NCBI GenBank assembly: GCA_002708985.1
Contig: PAPS01000003.1
Coordinates: 1 to 33,356 of the forward strand
DNA length: 33,356 bases
Origin: Saprospirales bacterium
Lineage (GTDB): Bacteria; Bacteroidota; Bacteroidia; Chitinophagales; UBA8649
Direction of reading: 5' to 3'
The stretch's first letter is position 1; each line of letters starts with the position of its first letter. The notes beneath the pieces were generated by a model, which was given only the letters and a program-made list of their open reading frames with translations, was not told the origin of the DNA and did no database searches. A program made the translations under genes and the position numbers. This document shows positions 15,453-31,402 of the stretch, in pieces.

Positions 15453-15483
15453 TTGATTCAAAGTTTTTTTCAAGCTACGATTC

Positions 15484-15507
15484 TTTAAGTAAGTTTCTTT
15501 ACTTAAA
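15484..15507. terminator. AT-rich hairpin between convergent lgt and the 937-aa gene
   Basis: TTTAAGTAA (15484-15492) pairs perfectly with TTACTTAAA (15499-15507). It is AT-only and overlaps the stop codon of the minus gene, so it is weak. Confidence 0.3.
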
Positions 15508-18312
15508 TCGTTCAAGTCGAAGCAGTTTAATATTGACAGCAAAATTTAAGTTAGCCGCGGCCTCACGAAATCCAAAAGTTGTTATTCCTATAACCTGACC
15601 CTTATTATTAAAGAGTGGTCCTCCGCTACTGCCGTGTGTAATCGGTGTCGTAGTTTGAATCAGATTATTATTTTCTCTAAGACCAGAGATAATACCGTTC
15701 GATAAGGTTTTTTCTAATTTAAATGGATTCCCTATAGCATAAACTTCTTCGCCAATCACATTGCTCAAATATGAGATATCTAGTTTTGGAAATTCTTGCC
15801 CATTGTTATCAACTTCGAATATGACAAAATCAGTTTCCTCGTTCTCTTCAATTATTCGTTTTATTTCAAAAATCTCACCATTTTCTAATAAGATTTCAGC
15901 ACCCCTATAGTTTTTCTTATTGAGCACATGATAATTGCTTACACCAATTCCATCTGAGCTAATAAAAAAACCTGAACCTATACCACGATCAGAACCATCT
16001 CCAGCAAAGACATAGAATACTGCATCTTTAGTTTTGTAGAAAAGTTTTGTTAAACTCTCTTCTATATTTTGGTTCATAACATCATGTACGATAATCTCAA
16101 CGGAAATTCTTCTATGCTCAGCACCTCTTTCATCATGAACGACAGTCCTATGTTCAATGTCAAGGTTAACAGAATTTAGTGTAGATATATTGCTTTCTAA
16201 ATAATTTCTTAAGCCAAGAGTTCTGAGATATGCCAATTCTTCATTTTCTTTAATAAGATCATTTTGATTTAAGTAAATCGTTCTTAAATCACCGTCGTTA
16301 AAATAGTAGTTGTCAAGATTACCATATTCACCTCTATATTTTAACCTAGAAGTTATAGGAGTGCCATCAGTAGACCCCGTAATAATAACACTAACGTTTC
16401 GTCCAGGTGTTAAATACTTTTTCAACTCGTTTTCAAGTGTTCTTTTGATAAAAGTTGAGGTTAGTAATGCTGAATTAGATTGGTCTAATCTGTATGCTCC
16501 GCCGGGATAATCATTTGTATTAGTTTCTAATTTGGCTTTGACCACTTCGTAGAAATACTCTACATGTAGATTTAATTCAGGATTTCTAGCATCCTGGATA
16601 TCTTCTTTAATTGAAGCCCGTACACCTGTTATAATGTTTGATGAAATTGGAAGAGATTCGGCCAATTCCTCTTTTACTTCGACTAATTGTTCCTGTAGTA
16701 TTTTCTCTTGATTTCTCGCCTCTGTTTCAGCTTTTTCTCTTGTTTCTTCCGAGTTTGATGTCTGCCCATCATCTCCTCCAGCTTCGCGCTGACGACGTAA
16801 TTCTTCGATAAGATCCTTGAGTGGTCCAAAATCATTTTCTGCGCGTTCAAAACGCTCTCGGTCGTTGGTCGACCAATAACTTCGAATAAATTGTTCGATT
16901 TGCTCGACTCCAAGACGTTTACCGATAATTCGTTTTTCCGCGTCAAGCACGAAGACTACAGGTGTTGCGGATAAATCATAGTTGTCACGCATACCACGGT
17001 TATTGAATAGATCAGCCACGTTGTAGAACTTCTCTAGGCCTTTGGATTCGATGAATTCATGCCATTCTTCAACTTGTGCAGAATCATGTACGGTCGTGGA
17101 TACGGCATAGATACTAATGTCATAGTCCATGAATTTTTCATGAAAATCAACCAGTTTTGGCGTAGCCTTTTTACAGTGCCCACAATCCGGGTCATAGATA
17201 AAAAGGATAGTATAGTCAGACTTTATATTGTCGAGGCATACTTCATTAAGCCGATTAGCTGGAAAAGTAAAGTTATGGTCATACAAACACATCTCTGGAG
17301 CAATCTGACCACAAACAATGGGGGCTAAGGCCATACCACGTTCCACAATCTTTGCATTTTGGGCGCTGTCCGTCCAATAAGCCAATCCTGTTTTGTAATA
17401 GCGCATGACAAGCTCCACATAGATTTTATCCATGCAGACAATTTCTGAATTTGCGTATTTGTTGAGGACTTGTACTAGGACATATTGAAAAACATCATCA
17501 TTAGCTCTAGACAGTTCCACGATATTAACTGCAGCCCTCATCAGAGAATCCGGGACTTGCTCAGTAGCCTTGTCCAAGTAATTCATCATTTTGTTGTGAA
17601 ATACCGGGGTACGGATAATTCCTGGATCTGAAAAGTCAATATAATCTAAGAAATGGTCATGGTAGTATTGGAACTTTATTCGATTATCTGCTTCACTCAG
17701 CCATTCTGGAATTTCTGTTTCTTGCATTACACCAAGCAGCGCGGCATAAAATAGGGTGGAATGTTCACGCATGAGCGCTGCACGTGAGGCTTTAATTGTT
17801 TGGCTAAGCACTTCTATTTGATCTCGAAGGGCTTTCTTTTGTTCTGCATCGGCGACTCCTTGGATTTGGGCGTTGAGTGCATTGGCCTGCTTACTCAGTG
17901 CAGCCATTTGATCCATGTCTTGATAGAACACATCATTTTCTGCACTTCCTTGGAAGGCGAGGTTATCGACCACATTATCTGCTGATGTGCGAATATCAAA
18001 GGATTCATTGCCAGATACGATAAACTCAAAGTAGATATTACCTAGTTCGGGGAAGACTGCTAGGTAGACTCCTCTTGGAATGTCTTCAATGTGGTTCCAT
18101 ACGGCGCGTCCTCTGCCATCTGTAAATAAACTGTCCTCGATATAGTGTTTGCCCTGTTGATGATAGGCTATTGTGATTTTTTTATTAGGATAACCATCAA
18201 TTTGAAAGGATATATCATGACTCTTCTGGCGTTTTTGTGCTTGGCTGAATAGCGGTAGAGCACAGAGTAAAATAAGTCCTAGTCCTTTATATAATTTTGA
18301 GCGATGATGCAT
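15499..18312 (-). CDS. Multidomain secreted protein: DUF4369/DUF5106-like + thioredoxin-like (CGHC) + coiled coil + OmpA-like + trypsin-like (S1C) serine protease
   Basis: 937 aa with signal peptide. 'FIYDPDCGHCKKATPKLVDF'; 'SVIITGSTDGTPI...ENEELAYLRTLGLRNYLE...RRISVEI'; 'GSGFFISSDGIGVSNYHVL', 'ETDFVIFEVD', 'THGSSGGPLFNNKGQVIGITTFGF' (His/Asp/Ser). Confidence 0.85.
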   Translation of the reverse strand: MHHRSKLYKGLGLILLCALPLFSQAQKRQKSHDISFQIDGYPNKKITIAYHQQGKHYIEDSLFTDGRGRAVWNHIEDIPRGVYLAVFPELGNIYFEFIVSGNESFDIRTSADNVVDNLAFQGSAENDVFYQDMDQMAALSKQANALNAQIQGVADAEQKKALRDQIEVLSQTIKASRAALMREHSTLFYAALLGVMQETEIPEWLSEADNRIKFQYYHDHFLDYIDFSDPGIIRTPVFHNKMMNYLDKATEQVPDSLMRAAVNIVELSRANDDVFQYVLVQVLNKYANSEIVCMDKIYVELVMRYYKTGLAYWTDSAQNAKIVERGMALAPIVCGQIAPEMCLYDHNFTFPANRLNEVCLDNIKSDYTILFIYDPDCGHCKKATPKLVDFHEKFMDYDISIYAVSTTVHDSAQVEEWHEFIESKGLEKFYNVADLFNNRGMRDNYDLSATPVVFVLDAEKRIIGKRLGVEQIEQFIRSYWSTNDRERFERAENDFGPLKDLIEELRRQREAGGDDGQTSNSEETREKAETEARNQEKILQEQLVEVKEELAESLPISSNIITGVRASIKEDIQDARNPELNLHVEYFYEVVKAKLETNTNDYPGGAYRLDQSNSALLTSTFIKRTLENELKKYLTPGRNVSVIITGSTDGTPITSRLKYRGEYGNLDNYYFNDGDLRTIYLNQNDLIKENEELAYLRTLGLRNYLESNISTLNSVNLDIEHRTVVHDERGAEHRRISVEIIVHDVMNQNIEESLTKLFYKTKDAVFYVFAGDGSDRGIGSGFFISSDGIGVSNYHVLNKKNYRGAEILLENGEIFEIKRIIEENEETDFVIFEVDNNGQEFPKLDISYLSNVIGEEVYAIGNPFKLEKTLSNGIISGLRENNNLIQTTTPITHGSSGGPLFNNKGQVIGITTFGFREAAANLNFAVNIKLLRLERFK

Positions 18313-18316
18313 AGGT

Positions 18317-18664
18317 CTACGATTTAAGCTTATTGGTTTCTTCCATTAGATTTTGGCAGAAGGTCTTCATCATATTTTGTGCCAAAGGATTTTTTGTCGC
18401 ATCCACATAGGATTTTGTGAGGTTTATCAGGTTGCGTACATAATGCATATTCATCTCATCAACGGTCATAGAATTTGTCCAGAGATTGATACTTAGTGAA
18501 TTGTTTATAACTGGGTCCCAGATCCCCAAATTAAATGCCTTGCAGTCTTTGACACCTTGTGATGAGTTCGCGCTGGCAGACCATTTTAAATCAACGGGCA
18601 AGTTGTTTTCATTGAGACCAACTTTGATTTTGATTTCTTCCCAATTTTTAACCTCGTTTTTCAT
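18317..18664 (-). CDS. gldC: Gliding motility protein GldC-like
   Basis: 115 aa; 'IKVGLNENNLPVDLKWSA', 'CKAFNLGIWDPVINNSLSINLWTNSMTVDEMNMHYVRNLINLTKSY...MMKTFCQNL' follows the GldC pattern. Confidence 0.82.
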   Translation of the reverse strand: MKNEVKNWEEIKIKVGLNENNLPVDLKWSASANSSQGVKDCKAFNLGIWDPVINNSLSINLWTNSMTVDEMNMHYVRNLINLTKSYVDATKNPLAQNMMKTFCQNLMEETNKLKS

Positions 18665-18730: not shown

Positions 18731-19351
18731 TTATTTCAGAGATTGGATTCCTTCAATCCAGTCCTTTTGTATGGTCTCTCCTTGATCCTTCAGATACCAT
18801 TGTGTTGTCTTCTTGAGTTTCTCCTCTTTTGTTGCACCTTTGCTAAGCCAATCTTTTACTAGATTCTGTAGGGTAGATGGCCTCGGACCCCATGTCCATA
18901 ATACACTTTCCGCGTCATCGGTAATTAAGACTTTGGGTATGGCTTTTGCTCCATTGGTTAAATGGTTATTCATAATTTCTGGAGAAGTATCCCGATAGAT
19001 AATTCTCAATTCAATAAGACCAGGGTTTACTTCGGCAAAACATTCTAATACAGGAAGGGCAAAGGCAGCATCTCCGCACCAAGGTTCCGTGATGCAATAC
19101 ATTGTAAGCTTCTGCTCTATACATATCAGTAGGTTGTATAGCTTTTTATTAAGTCTGAATCGACTCCCAAAACGCTGCATACGTTCGTAGTTAGCACGCG
19201 TATAGTCCAACCAATAAGGACTGTCGTAAAATGTTTTTTCGCTCTTTCCTTCTACAATAGAGGTGAAATCTTGCAGATAACTTTCATAACTTACGCTGTG
19301 TTCTCGGAGTGTACCCATTGGTATACGATTATATTGTAGCGTAACCATCAA
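18731..19351 (-). CDS. Thioredoxin-family protein (single Cys, 'WCGDA' type)
   Basis: 206 aa; 'CITEPWCGDAAFALPVLECFAEVNPGLIELRIIYRD', 'AIPKVLITD'. Start may be the internal Met at 'MGTLREHS'. Confidence 0.8.
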   Translation of the reverse strand: MMVTLQYNRIPMGTLREHSVSYESYLQDFTSIVEGKSEKTFYDSPYWLDYTRANYERMQRFGSRFRLNKKLYNLLICIEQKLTMYCITEPWCGDAAFALPVLECFAEVNPGLIELRIIYRDTSPEIMNNHLTNGAKAIPKVLITDDAESVLWTWGPRPSTLQNLVKDWLSKGATKEEKLKKTTQWYLKDQGETIQKDWIEGIQSLK

Positions 19352-25920: not shown

Positions 25921-26277
25921 CTAAGATCTTTTAAGATATATCCCAAGCATATGACCAAATAAGCTTCCAAGAAGACCGTGGAGTCCTCCCAGTATTGCGG
26001 TGAGTAAAAATGGATTTAGCGGTAAGATTTTCCCTTCTACAAATCGATGATAAAGGATGTGATGATTTTGTGCTGACATGATGAAACTTATACCTGCCCA
26101 CAGCGCTGCACCAAGTAGCAGTCCAAGAAGTAATTCCTGCCATAAGGGTTTTACAAACAGAAACCCACCAAGAGCAAAAATAACGCCGAGACCCCACCAA
26201 GGAAGATAGCTGACGGCTATGGCACTACCTATGATATAGAAGAATACCATGATGAGTATGTTTCTATTTTTTTTCAT
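25921..26277 (-). CDS. Small integral membrane protein (about 4 TM)
   Basis: 118 aa, strongly hydrophobic. ATGA overlap with the upstream acylase gene argues for a real coupled gene. Confidence 0.7.
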   Translation of the reverse strand: MKKNRNILIMVFFYIIGSAIAVSYLPWWGLGVIFALGGFLFVKPLWQELLLGLLLGAALWAGISFIMSAQNHHILYHRFVEGKILPLNPFLLTAILGGLHGLLGSLFGHMLGIYLKRS

Positions 26278-28718
26278 GGTAGTAATGCTGTCTTAGTAAA
26301 TGCTTCGTTGTCTTGAAAAAAGGATGAACTTTCCATAACAAAGGAATGATACGTTTTATTCAACCAGTCATCGACAAATCCCATGTAATGTGCACTTCCT
26401 GGATTACCCGATTGCCCGCCAGGATAATGTCCACGTCCTTGTATTTTATCTCCTGAAAAATCTAATATCATACGCCATGATGGGCCTGTTGATGTCTTGC
26501 TCGCATTTAGAATATGCTCTCCGCCGCCAGCAGAAGGTAATTCATAACTAAACCCATCAATGCGCAATAAGTGACTGATAGTTGAGGCTTTAGATTGTCC
26601 CCATTGAGACGAGTCCGCATCCCAGTCTTGAAATGTGCAGAGCACATCAAATGTATTATTCAGCAGCTTTTTTTGAGCAGCCACAATATCTCCTTTTAGA
26701 AAAGGATGACTAAGGCTATCTTTTAGCTGGAAATAGGTCTGATACTCATTAGGCTTAACCCATATACTGTCAAATCTTTCATCCTTGTACAGTGAGTCTG
26801 TATACAGTGTGTACCATAGGTGAAATTGACTAGGAGCCACTTTTTCTGCATCGGCCACGAAATCCCATGCTTGAAGGGATTGAGCGACAGGATTTGCCCT
26901 ATCATGGCCATCCAAGTAGGATAGCATGAGCGGTAGCATTTCCGATGCAAAAAGATCATAATTGTCATACTGTATGCTGACCATATCTTCGATACTTGCT
27001 TCATGCAAATTGTTTAATAAGTTATTTAAGCGCCGATTGCGATAGTGTTCAAATTCTCCATGAGTATAATATGGGTAATCTGGGCTCACGGCATGCTGAT
27101 TAGCTGATGATGCATACTGCGATGCGGGATTGTAAAGGGTAGGCATATCCTCGAATGGAATGCTTTCCCTCCAATCAAAACTTGAGGAGGTTCCATCCAT
27201 AACAAAATACCCTTGTCCCTCCTCTAATACGGCGAAATCTCCCTGCTGGCGCAATCCGATATCGCCTTGAAGTGAGGCAAAAATGAAGTTTTGAGCAGGG
27301 CAGCTATAGTATCTTAGTGCATTCAGAAAATCATCCCAATTCTTGGCTTTATTTATCTGATAAAAAGCATAAAACTCTTCGGTTGGATCATGGGCTCTCC
27401 AGCGCAAGGCCAAGTCACCTGTAAACTTTTCTGAAGGGAAAGTCGTCTTGTCATAAACAACAGGCCCATGATGAGAATAGGGGATGTTCAAAATGACATC
27501 TTCACTGCCTCGGCAATGAATTACTTCTTTACGATAGGTTAGGTCTTTCCATACGGAGTCGTGGTAGTATTGTGTCCGATCGTCGTTGATAGTTAACTGA
27601 TACCAATCCTTTACATCTCGACCTGCATTAGTAACACCCCATCCGATGGAATCATTACACCCAATAACAATTCCTGGAGCACCGGGAAAACTGACACCAT
27701 ATGCGTTGTATCCTGGACAACTTATTTGCATTTCCACCCAGATACAAGGTGCATTGAAACTCAAGTGAGGATCGTTTGCAAGCAATGGCTTTCCTGATTT
27801 GCTGCGTTCTTTATGAATTACCCAATTGTTGCTGCCAATGTTTTTATCAGGAGGATTATTCAAACGCTGAGGCATAGCTAAATCGAAAGACGACGGATGG
27901 GCACTTTGTTGAGGACTACTATGGTTTGTGGAATCACTACGAGGGTAGGTCGAAGGCGGGAAAATGGGCTCCATAGGCTGGTAATATTCTCCATAGATTG
28001 TAAAGAACATCTCTTCGCCAAGTGCATTTTTTAGATTGGTGTATTCTAAATCGAATTCTCGATCTGTTAAATCCTTGCTCATAGCCATTAACAGCAAGCA
28101 AGAGTTTAAGTTGGTCCAAGGGCTTGGTTGGTAATCGAGTAACTTATACTCCAAGGGATAGTCTGCGTAGCTTAGGGAATTGATGTAGGCATTTACTCCT
28201 TTTGTGTAAGCATCAAGTAAGGTGCGGGCTTCTGGATTTTTTTCAATGGCCTCAAGCTTTTTTTCTGCACCATAGATCATACCCATTCTACGTTGGTTGA
28301 TATCAATCTCTAGAAGCTTATCCTTGAGATTAGGATCATCGCCAAGGATTTCTGACAGTCGACCGGCCGCGGCAAAAATGGTGAATTCCATTTGCCAAAG
28401 ACGAAGCGAGGCCTCTACATACCCTTGAGCAAAGAACATATCGTGCTCATTTTGGGCACATATATGGGGGATGTATTGGTCATCCCAATAGACCGATACT
28501 TCGTCACGAAGTCCCTTTGTATTGGTTATTGATTTCATTGGCAAAGCGTCAGTGGACTCCGCTTGCCGCCAGATGCCCGAAGCAGGATAAAGAAGATTAC
28601 CTAATGGGGGAATCGGACCATCACCAAGGGTAATTCGATGGGATCCTGTAAAACTGAGGGCTACAAAAAATCCTCCAAACAGAACGGTTAAAACAAATTG
28701 TAAAGCTTTATTTTGCAA
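26274..28718 (-). CDS. Penicillin acylase family (Ntn-hydrolase) protein
   Basis: 814 aa; 'GIPHICAQNEHDMFFAQGYVEASLRLWQME'-like start (YIPHICAQ...), 'NIGSNNWVIHKERSKSGKPLLANDPHLSFNAPCIWVEMQI' with the catalytic beta-subunit Ser, 'GPVV', 'GGQSGNPGSAHY'. Confidence 0.94.
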   Translation of the reverse strand: MQNKALQFVLTVLFGGFFVALSFTGSHRITLGDGPIPPLGNLLYPASGIWRQAESTDALPMKSITNTKGLRDEVSVYWDDQYIPHICAQNEHDMFFAQGYVEASLRLWQMEFTIFAAAGRLSEILGDDPNLKDKLLEIDINQRRMGMIYGAEKKLEAIEKNPEARTLLDAYTKGVNAYINSLSYADYPLEYKLLDYQPSPWTNLNSCLLLMAMSKDLTDREFDLEYTNLKNALGEEMFFTIYGEYYQPMEPIFPPSTYPRSDSTNHSSPQQSAHPSSFDLAMPQRLNNPPDKNIGSNNWVIHKERSKSGKPLLANDPHLSFNAPCIWVEMQISCPGYNAYGVSFPGAPGIVIGCNDSIGWGVTNAGRDVKDWYQLTINDDRTQYYHDSVWKDLTYRKEVIHCRGSEDVILNIPYSHHGPVVYDKTTFPSEKFTGDLALRWRAHDPTEEFYAFYQINKAKNWDDFLNALRYYSCPAQNFIFASLQGDIGLRQQGDFAVLEEGQGYFVMDGTSSSFDWRESIPFEDMPTLYNPASQYASSANQHAVSPDYPYYTHGEFEHYRNRRLNNLLNNLHEASIEDMVSIQYDNYDLFASEMLPLMLSYLDGHDRANPVAQSLQAWDFVADAEKVAPSQFHLWYTLYTDSLYKDERFDSIWVKPNEYQTYFQLKDSLSHPFLKGDIVAAQKKLLNNTFDVLCTFQDWDADSSQWGQSKASTISHLLRIDGFSYELPSAGGGEHILNASKTSTGPSWRMILDFSGDKIQGRGHYPGGQSGNPGSAHYMGFVDDWLNKTYHSFVMESSSFFQDNEAFTKTALLP

Positions 28719-29414: not shown

Positions 29415-29437
29415 TGTGAGAGTTGTATCTTTTCGGC

Positions 29438-31402
29438 ATGCTGATGAAATATAAAATTAGGTTGATTGTACTTTTAAGTGTAGTTGTCATGCTCACGGCC
29501 TTGGATGGCTTAGCTCAAGTAAGCGTTGGAGGTACTCCATTATCATGGAATAGTGATCACTACACTGCCACTGTACCTATCACACTGCCAGTCGTTGACG
29601 AGGCCGCGCTTTTGCTAGAAGATGAGGCACGTCTTGCCAATGGAGAAAAGTCTACTCGCTTTGGCTATAATCATGAGGTTGCCATCGACGTATTATCCTC
29701 CTGCATTTGGGAAACGACTTCGACCCACGAAATTGGTCGCTTATCCATTCAAAGCGAAGGAGCAAGAAGCATTAACCTTATTTTTAACGACTTTCATCTC
29801 GAAGGAGATGTTGCTCTCTTTTTATACAATGAGTCAAGGGAGGACGTCATCGGGGCCTTTACTTCACTAAACAACAAATCCTACCGGTCATTCAGTACAC
29901 TGCCTCTGCCAGGCGATATTCTTACATTGGAGATTAATGCGCCGCTGGGTAGTCGAACAGATTTAACGGTTATTGAATTAGAAACAGTAACCCATGCTTA
30001 CAAAGATTTATTCAATCAATCCTTGGACAAAGGGCTCGGTCAGTCCGGCTCATGTAATGTGAACGTTAATTGTCCTGAAGCTTCAGGTTGGGCGGATGAG
30101 CGTCGATCCGTAGCGAGAATTGTAGTTAATGGAGGTGACCACTGCACAGGAGCTTTAATCAATAATACGGGTAACGATGCAACACCATATTTCTTGACAG
30201 CTAACCACTGCCTAACTGGGAGTGTCTCAAATTGGGTGTTTTGGTTCAATTGGGAAAGTCCCACTTGTAATCCAACACAGAATTCTTCGTACGACGGCAT
30301 TTCAGGTTCTACTTTGCTCGCGAGCTGCTCAAATTCGGATTTTGCCTTGCTGGAGCTAAGTCAGGCAGTACCCTTGGAATATAATCCATATTATGCGGGT
30401 TGGTCTGCGGTTAATACCGCGCCAACATCTACTGTGGGAATCCATCATCCTTCGGGTGATATCAAAAAGTGGTCTTATGATAGCGATGCTTCAGTGTCCT
30501 CTGAGTGGGGTGGTTGGGGTAGTAGCGGTACAAATACCCACTGGGAAGTGCTTGATTGGGACATTGGAACAACAGAAGGTGGTTCATCCGGTAGTCCCTT
30601 GTTTGACCAAAATAAGCGTATTGTAGGCCAGTTGCACGGGGGAGCTGCGCTCTGTGGGAATGACTTTTCTGACTTGTATGGTAAGGTTGCTTATTCCTGG
30701 GACTGTCAAAGTCAAAATTCAGGACGGTTAGATATTTATCTTGACCCGAATAATTCTGGGTTAACCTTATTAGACGGCTTTGATCCCAATGCTGATGTTT
30801 ATGCTAACGATGCTATGGCTGGAGAGATTCTCGGTTTTGAGGATTCCTGCGCATCGGGCGCTATCGCAAAGTTAGTGTTGGTTAATGCAGGAACTGATCC
30901 TCTAACCAGTGCTGATATTCTTTATGGTCTAAACGGTTCGACCCAGCAAACATTAAATTGGTCAGGAAACTTAGCATCTGGTAGTTCTGAGGTTGTTGAT
31001 TTAGAAATTGTGTCGTTAAACCCTGGTCCGATCCTTTATGAAGCACGTGTAAGCAACCCAAATGGAGTAACGGATGAAAATTCAGCTAATAATTTGGTCT
31101 TTGTAAACAAAACCATCGTAGGTCCGGCAGGTTGTACTTCGACGTCAGTCCTCGCTTTAGATGAAGGTGGAATACTTATTGCACCAAACCCTGTTGATCA
31201 GTTGTTATCTCTGTCACGAGTCAATGAGGAGGGTTCAGTGGTTCGTATATACAATGCTAAGGGACAGTTATTATTCCAAGAGCAATGGTTGGGAAATACT
31301 CTTTCCCTCGACGTATCGCAATGGACAAATGGCGTCTACGTAGTTCAGTATCAATCCATGATGACAGGTAAGCAAGGCCGTATTTCCTTTGTGAAACAAT
31401 AG
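29438..31402 (+). CDS. T9SS-exported lysyl-endopeptidase-like trypsin-fold serine protease
   Basis: 'GGDHCTGALINNTGNDATPYFLTANHCLTG' (His), 'CSNSDFALLEL' (Asp), 'GTTEGGSSGSPLFDQNKRIVGQLHGG' (Ser), C-terminal 'ILIAPNPVDQLLSLSR...VRIYNAKGQLLFQ' sorting domain. The track start is TTG 29423; ATGs lie at 29438/29444. Confidence 0.92.
   Translation: MLMKYKIRLIVLLSVVVMLTALDGLAQVSVGGTPLSWNSDHYTATVPITLPVVDEAALLLEDEARLANGEKSTRFGYNHEVAIDVLSSCIWETTSTHEIGRLSIQSEGARSINLIFNDFHLEGDVALFLYNESREDVIGAFTSLNNKSYRSFSTLPLPGDILTLEINAPLGSRTDLTVIELETVTHAYKDLFNQSLDKGLGQSGSCNVNVNCPEASGWADERRSVARIVVNGGDHCTGALINNTGNDATPYFLTANHCLTGSVSNWVFWFNWESPTCNPTQNSSYDGISGSTLLASCSNSDFALLELSQAVPLEYNPYYAGWSAVNTAPTSTVGIHHPSGDIKKWSYDSDASVSSEWGGWGSSGTNTHWEVLDWDIGTTEGGSSGSPLFDQNKRIVGQLHGGAALCGNDFSDLYGKVAYSWDCQSQNSGRLDIYLDPNNSGLTLLDGFDPNADVYANDAMAGEILGFEDSCASGAIAKLVLVNAGTDPLTSADILYGLNGSTQQTLNWSGNLASGSSEVVDLEIVSLNPGPILYEARVSNPNGVTDENSANNLVFVNKTIVGPAGCTSTSVLALDEGGILIAPNPVDQLLSLSRVNEEGSVVRIYNAKGQLLFQEQWLGNTLSLDVSQWTNGVYVVQYQSMMTGKQGRISFVKQ

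Follow-up and report, generated by a model that had tools for sequence, protein, structure and literature searches.

The 937-aa protein in which a thioredoxin-like half is joined to a trypsin-like protease most probably arose by the insertion of 1292 bp into the end of a resident thioredoxin gene. The fusion is probably recent and private to one lineage, rather than an established redox-protease machine (probability roughly 0.75). The window, the whole stretch of 33,356 nucleotides analysed here, encodes the protein at positions 15499-18312 as one ORF without an internal stop, as originally predicted, and the strand is minus. The features of the locus are the following:

15499..18312, minus strand: the whole fused ORF, 937 aa (ORF listing and Pfam)
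18235..18312, minus strand: signal peptide, approximately residues 1-26 (by eye from the translation)
16763..18312, minus strand: ancestral half, residues 1-516, an exported DUF5106 plus TlpA/AhpC-type thioredoxin fold, protease-free in relatives (Pfam and relatives)
17173..17184, minus strand: CGHC redox motif, residues 377-380 (motif reading)
15471..16762, minus strand: 1292-bp insertion of 34% GC, absent at the same locus in two genomes of the genus (G001 and G002), encoding residues 517-937 plus 28 bp past the stop (locus alignment)
16643..16758, minus strand: charged coiled-coil-like linker, residues ~519-556, the first part of the insert (translation; helical in a low-confidence model)
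16078..16644, minus strand: putative divergent OmpA-like module, residues ~557-745, with GSTDG (D649), LAYLR (R697) and RRISVEI (sequence and profile comparison)
15583..15978, minus strand: S1C/HtrA-type trypsin-like protease, residues 779-910, with H795, D828 and S896, PDZ-free (Pfam and motifs)
18317..18664, minus strand: GldC-like gene just upstream, adjoining the thioredoxin gene also in G004, a genome of the same family (Pfam and relatives)
18731..19351, minus strand: Thioredoxin_9 gene, in the conserved neighbourhood (Pfam and relatives)

The N-terminus, read by eye, carries a Sec-type signal (MHHRSKLYKGLGLILLCALPLFSQAQ), in agreement with the signal peptide of the original prediction. 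The HMM search which that prediction proposed recovered three regions in Pfam: DUF5106 at residues 196-307 (33 bits, cut-off 28), AhpC-TSA at residues 347-462 (40.8 bits) with a Thioredoxin_8 match over residues 366-461, and Trypsin_2 at residues 779-910 (87.3 bits, E 2e-24). DUF5106 and AhpC/Thioredoxin_8, all above cut-off and accompanied by a CXXC motif, place the first half among the TlpA/DUF5106 thioredoxin-fold proteins. The protease triad is intact, with SNYHV (H795), ETD (D828) and GSSGG (S896). This trypsin-like domain with its His-Asp-Ser triad corresponds to the HtrA/S1C type; the C-terminal PDZ domain of that type is missing, as Pfam gave no PDZ match and the chain stops at residue 937, right after the protease. 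The domains first read from the sequence (DUF5106, a CGHC thioredoxin fold and an S1C triad without PDZ) are therefore all present. No Pfam family matched residues 519-770.

Comparison with relatives shows where the second half came in. In G001 and G002 both flanks are collinear with the window at about 86-88% DNA identity, and positions 15471-16762 are the only large segment missing around the gene. In these two genomes the gene is about 525 codons long and closes with a His-rich tail (..GDGHDH-stop). The two genomes of the same family (G003 and G004) carry the same gene as a stand-alone unit of 500-506 aa beside some of the same neighbours, and the G003 copy terminates in HHEGDGHAH. The His-rich tail of G001, G002 and G003 is lost in the window ORF, where the insert stands in its place. 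Residues 1-516 align end to end with exported DUF5106/TlpA-type Bacteroidota proteins, at 92-95% identity in the genus and 24-43% across the order, and share with them the signal peptide and the CGHC motif; these relatives mostly end at ~475-550 aa, whereas the window ORF continues to residue 937. Downstream of the fused gene lie lgt- and fabD-like genes, named from sequence. Elsewhere in the window, the minus strand at positions 26274-28718 encodes a clear member of the penicillin amidase family (615 bits).

The joined ORF was found by whole-protein search in the window's own genome (G000) alone among 61 relatives, and no second family member with a protease was seen there: the combination remains as unfamiliar as it first appeared. 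The suggested search for other architectures of this kind gave the same picture, with no thioredoxin-S1C fusion among the top-scoring hits in 395 genomes of the class, for which the longest frame listed has 632 aa. Literature searches on thioredoxin-protease or OmpA-protease fusions turned up nothing specific. Separate genes for the two halves in related genomes would, by the original prediction, have spoken against the fusion: in the relatives the first half does occur alone, but the second is absent altogether.

Homology with the sister species is lost in codon 517 and returns 28 bp beyond the new stop; the exact ends of the insert were placed by eye, with an uncertainty of a few bases. About 35 bp of the ancestral gene end (~11 codons) have been swapped for 1292 bp, in frame, and the reading frame is open from the junction in codon 517 to residue 937. 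At 34.0%, the GC content of the insert is lower than that of any other 1260-bp stretch in 53 kb (mean 41.6%, sd 2.0). Its GC3 is 24.6%, compared with 33-47% for 20 neighbouring genes. Because of this composition, the insert appears foreign. Repeats shared between the junctions are 7 bp long at most. The idea of a transposon origin was set aside: the insert ends have neither inverted repeats nor a target-site duplication, the longest shared direct repeat being 7 bp. A plasmid or phage donor was likewise rejected, as the plasmid, phage and IMG/VR collections matched the generic trypsin domain only, never the module. No DNA-level donor was found in the collections searched; the named genome collection returned generic HtrA relatives from Clostridia and nothing else. 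In the window's genome the searches found the module only once.

The segment between the coiled coil and the protease had been described as OmpA-like, over residues about 555-745. This is plausible, as profile similarity emerges after excision of a loop, but not secure: PF00691 has no Pfam match in the window protein, and in a relative of the module (L049) it scores 13.5 bits against a cut-off of 27.2. With the full segment, hhalign gives ~14% probability and covers the helix only. After excision of a loop of ~32 residues the probability is 63% and the score 31.2, whereas 100 column-shuffled controls peak at 23.3. In the loop-excised alignment, ITGSTDG and NEELAYLRT lie against OmpA IxGHTDN and NxxLSxxRA, and D649 and R697 are, by eye, in register with the wall-binding Asp and Arg of OmpA; in Acinetobacter baumannii OmpA, the corresponding residues bind diaminopimelate (PMC6572160). 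For the beta-alpha-beta-alpha-beta-beta fold of OmpA, single-sequence AlphaFold models reached low pLDDT values of 36 and 33. A divergent OmpA-like domain is thus a plausible lead rather than proof. The peptidoglycan anchoring of the original prediction is possible through the register of D649 and R697, but the evidence for it is weak.

A single-sequence search found the module in 2 of 399 genomes of the order; a profile search adds matches in the family to which G128 belongs and, in G833, another copy. The closest relative found is in G833 (L055, a 996-aa frame), 39-40% identical over ~250 residues including the coiled coil. This protein, exported like that of the window, consists of SBBP propeller repeats, the same coiled coil and OmpA-like module, and a Peptidase_C14 domain with apparently intact HGD and DACFSG motifs: a propeller replaces the thioredoxin and a caspase-like protease replaces the trypsin. 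Since the module precedes a caspase-like protease there, it seems to pair with exchangeable proteases. In other relatives, various exported N-terminal regions precede the module. In two further cases (L078 and L079) the same OmpA-like module is matched weakly, behind ORFs that by eye resemble PorP/SprF.

Trypsin-like and caspase-like peptidases are also alternative effectors in the vWA-MoxR conflict systems, and OmpA domains occur in some iSTAND systems (PMC7159879). The likeness to the vWA-MoxR systems lies in the trypsin/caspase swap seen among the module relatives. Those systems, by contrast, are multi-gene and NTP-dependent, and their core genes were not recognised next to this locus; MoxR and vWA genes are absent among the neighbours examined (GldC-like, Thioredoxin_9, lgt- and fabD-like). 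Coiled coil, OmpA-like module and exchangeable protease could form a mobile periplasmic effector cassette, which would spread as a 3' gene end and capture resident exported proteins as targeting or sensing domain, a speculative and rather unlikely reading.

The protease itself is closest, among solved structures, to members of the HtrA/DegS/DegP group (MEROPS S1C): HTRA1, DegS and HhoA, with E values of 1e-19 to 1e-14. It stays far below the cut-offs of the NCBIfam DegP/DegS/HtrA equivalogs (best 102 bits vs. 416). It also aligns with the trypsin-like domain of RT-Protease XI (PADLOC, E 4e-18), but the protease part alone is matched and the window protein has no reverse transcriptase. The idea that the protease replaced a lost HtrA was discarded: the window's assembly yielded only two trypsin-like genes, but the ordinary HtrA gene falls in a contig break, with matches running to the end of contig C38 (31445) and resuming at C26:1, and its absence is therefore an assembly gap.

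A second trypsin-like protein is encoded in the window at 29423-31402 (plus strand), with a Trypsin_2 match of 43 bits and a Por_Secre_tail domain for sorting by type IX secretion. Type IX sorting domains and the GldC-like gene suggest, from gene content, that the DNA belongs to a member of the Bacteroidota. In G002, contig C35 (L086, 5908-8199) contains a 764-aa ORF with MORN-like repeats, seen by eye, and then a trypsin-like domain; none of the trypsin-like hits in the window's genome corresponds to it. An 804-aa exported protein of G816 (L070, 5786-8197) has TPR-like repeats, also seen by eye, followed by a C-terminal trypsin-like domain. The small Empedobacter plasmid NZ_CP053699.1 (L047, 2470-3624) carries a 384-aa S1C protease, the domain of which is 44% identical to that of the insert.

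From these comparisons, the following origin and role can be proposed. The ancestral protein, about 525 aa long, would have been an ordinary exported member of the DUF5106/TlpA-type thioredoxin-fold group. In one lineage, some 1.29 kb of low-GC foreign DNA, putatively the 3' part of a gene for coiled coil, OmpA-like module and S1C protease, would have taken the place of its last ~11 codons, in frame. The export signal would bring both enzymes into the periplasm. There, the thioredoxin half would retain its ancestral redox job, the OmpA-like module may tether the chain to the cell wall and the PDZ-less protease would cleave envelope proteins independently. The simplest model has two independent activities on one wall-tethered chain and proposes no redox gating. 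Such a bifunctional, wall-tethered periplasmic protease is put forward tentatively, at somewhat less than even odds.

The thioredoxin half is under strong purifying selection. Its dN/dS lies between 0.044 and 0.065 in all three pairs, like that of neighbouring genes; these figures concern the first half, the insert being known as one copy only. Private amino-acid changes in this half number 12 in the window's genome and 12 in G002. Because dN/dS is low and the private changes are equal, either the thioredoxin half has not been visibly relaxed by the fusion, or the fusion is too young for an effect to appear. The fusion could also be real with its protease part a neutral or mildly harmful passenger, the thioredoxin part alone doing the work. 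Its recent date, the unchanged selection on the first half and the retained foreign composition are all in line with such a passenger; the fully open frame of the insert and its intact catalytic motifs argue against it, even if a recent passenger would look alike. This explanation is somewhat unlikely, the odds being clearly against it.

The original prediction went further and suggested a coupling of the disulfide status of envelope clients to proteolysis. In a redox-gated protease of this kind, the thioredoxin half would sense or edit client disulfides and pass misfolded ones to the protease. Both catalytic motifs are intact in one predicted exported chain, and proximity alone could give a hand-over of substrates. 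However, residues 517-937 contain no cysteine. The protease thus offers the thioredoxin half no internal disulfide as a target, which makes a self-contained redox gating unlikely to judge from the sequence. Together with the recent join, confined to one genome, and the closest relative of the module, which works without a thioredoxin domain, this leaves the proposed coupling unsupported and a redox-gated protease improbable. Client hand-over from the thioredoxin half is possible but unsupported.

An assembly artefact, with a foreign fragment spliced into the contig, is just as improbable. In favour of it, the assembly is a draft of 46 contigs, the composition of the insert is different and the joined form was found in no second genome. 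Yet both junctions lie at one spot with otherwise collinear flanks, the short shared repeats around them (7 bp at most) offer nothing to mislead an assembler, contamination is 0.34% and the join is in frame. An ancestral fusion lost from every sampled relative, with nothing direct in its favour, is hardly credible in view of the short form in all family- and order-level relatives and of the foreign composition of the insert.

A recent fusion private to one lineage offers a before-and-after case: the birth of a multidomain envelope protein when foreign DNA joins a resident gene in frame, with sister species still carrying the unfused ancestor at that locus. The comparison also draws attention to an OmpA-like module of the Bacteroidota, so far without a name, that stands in front of different proteases.
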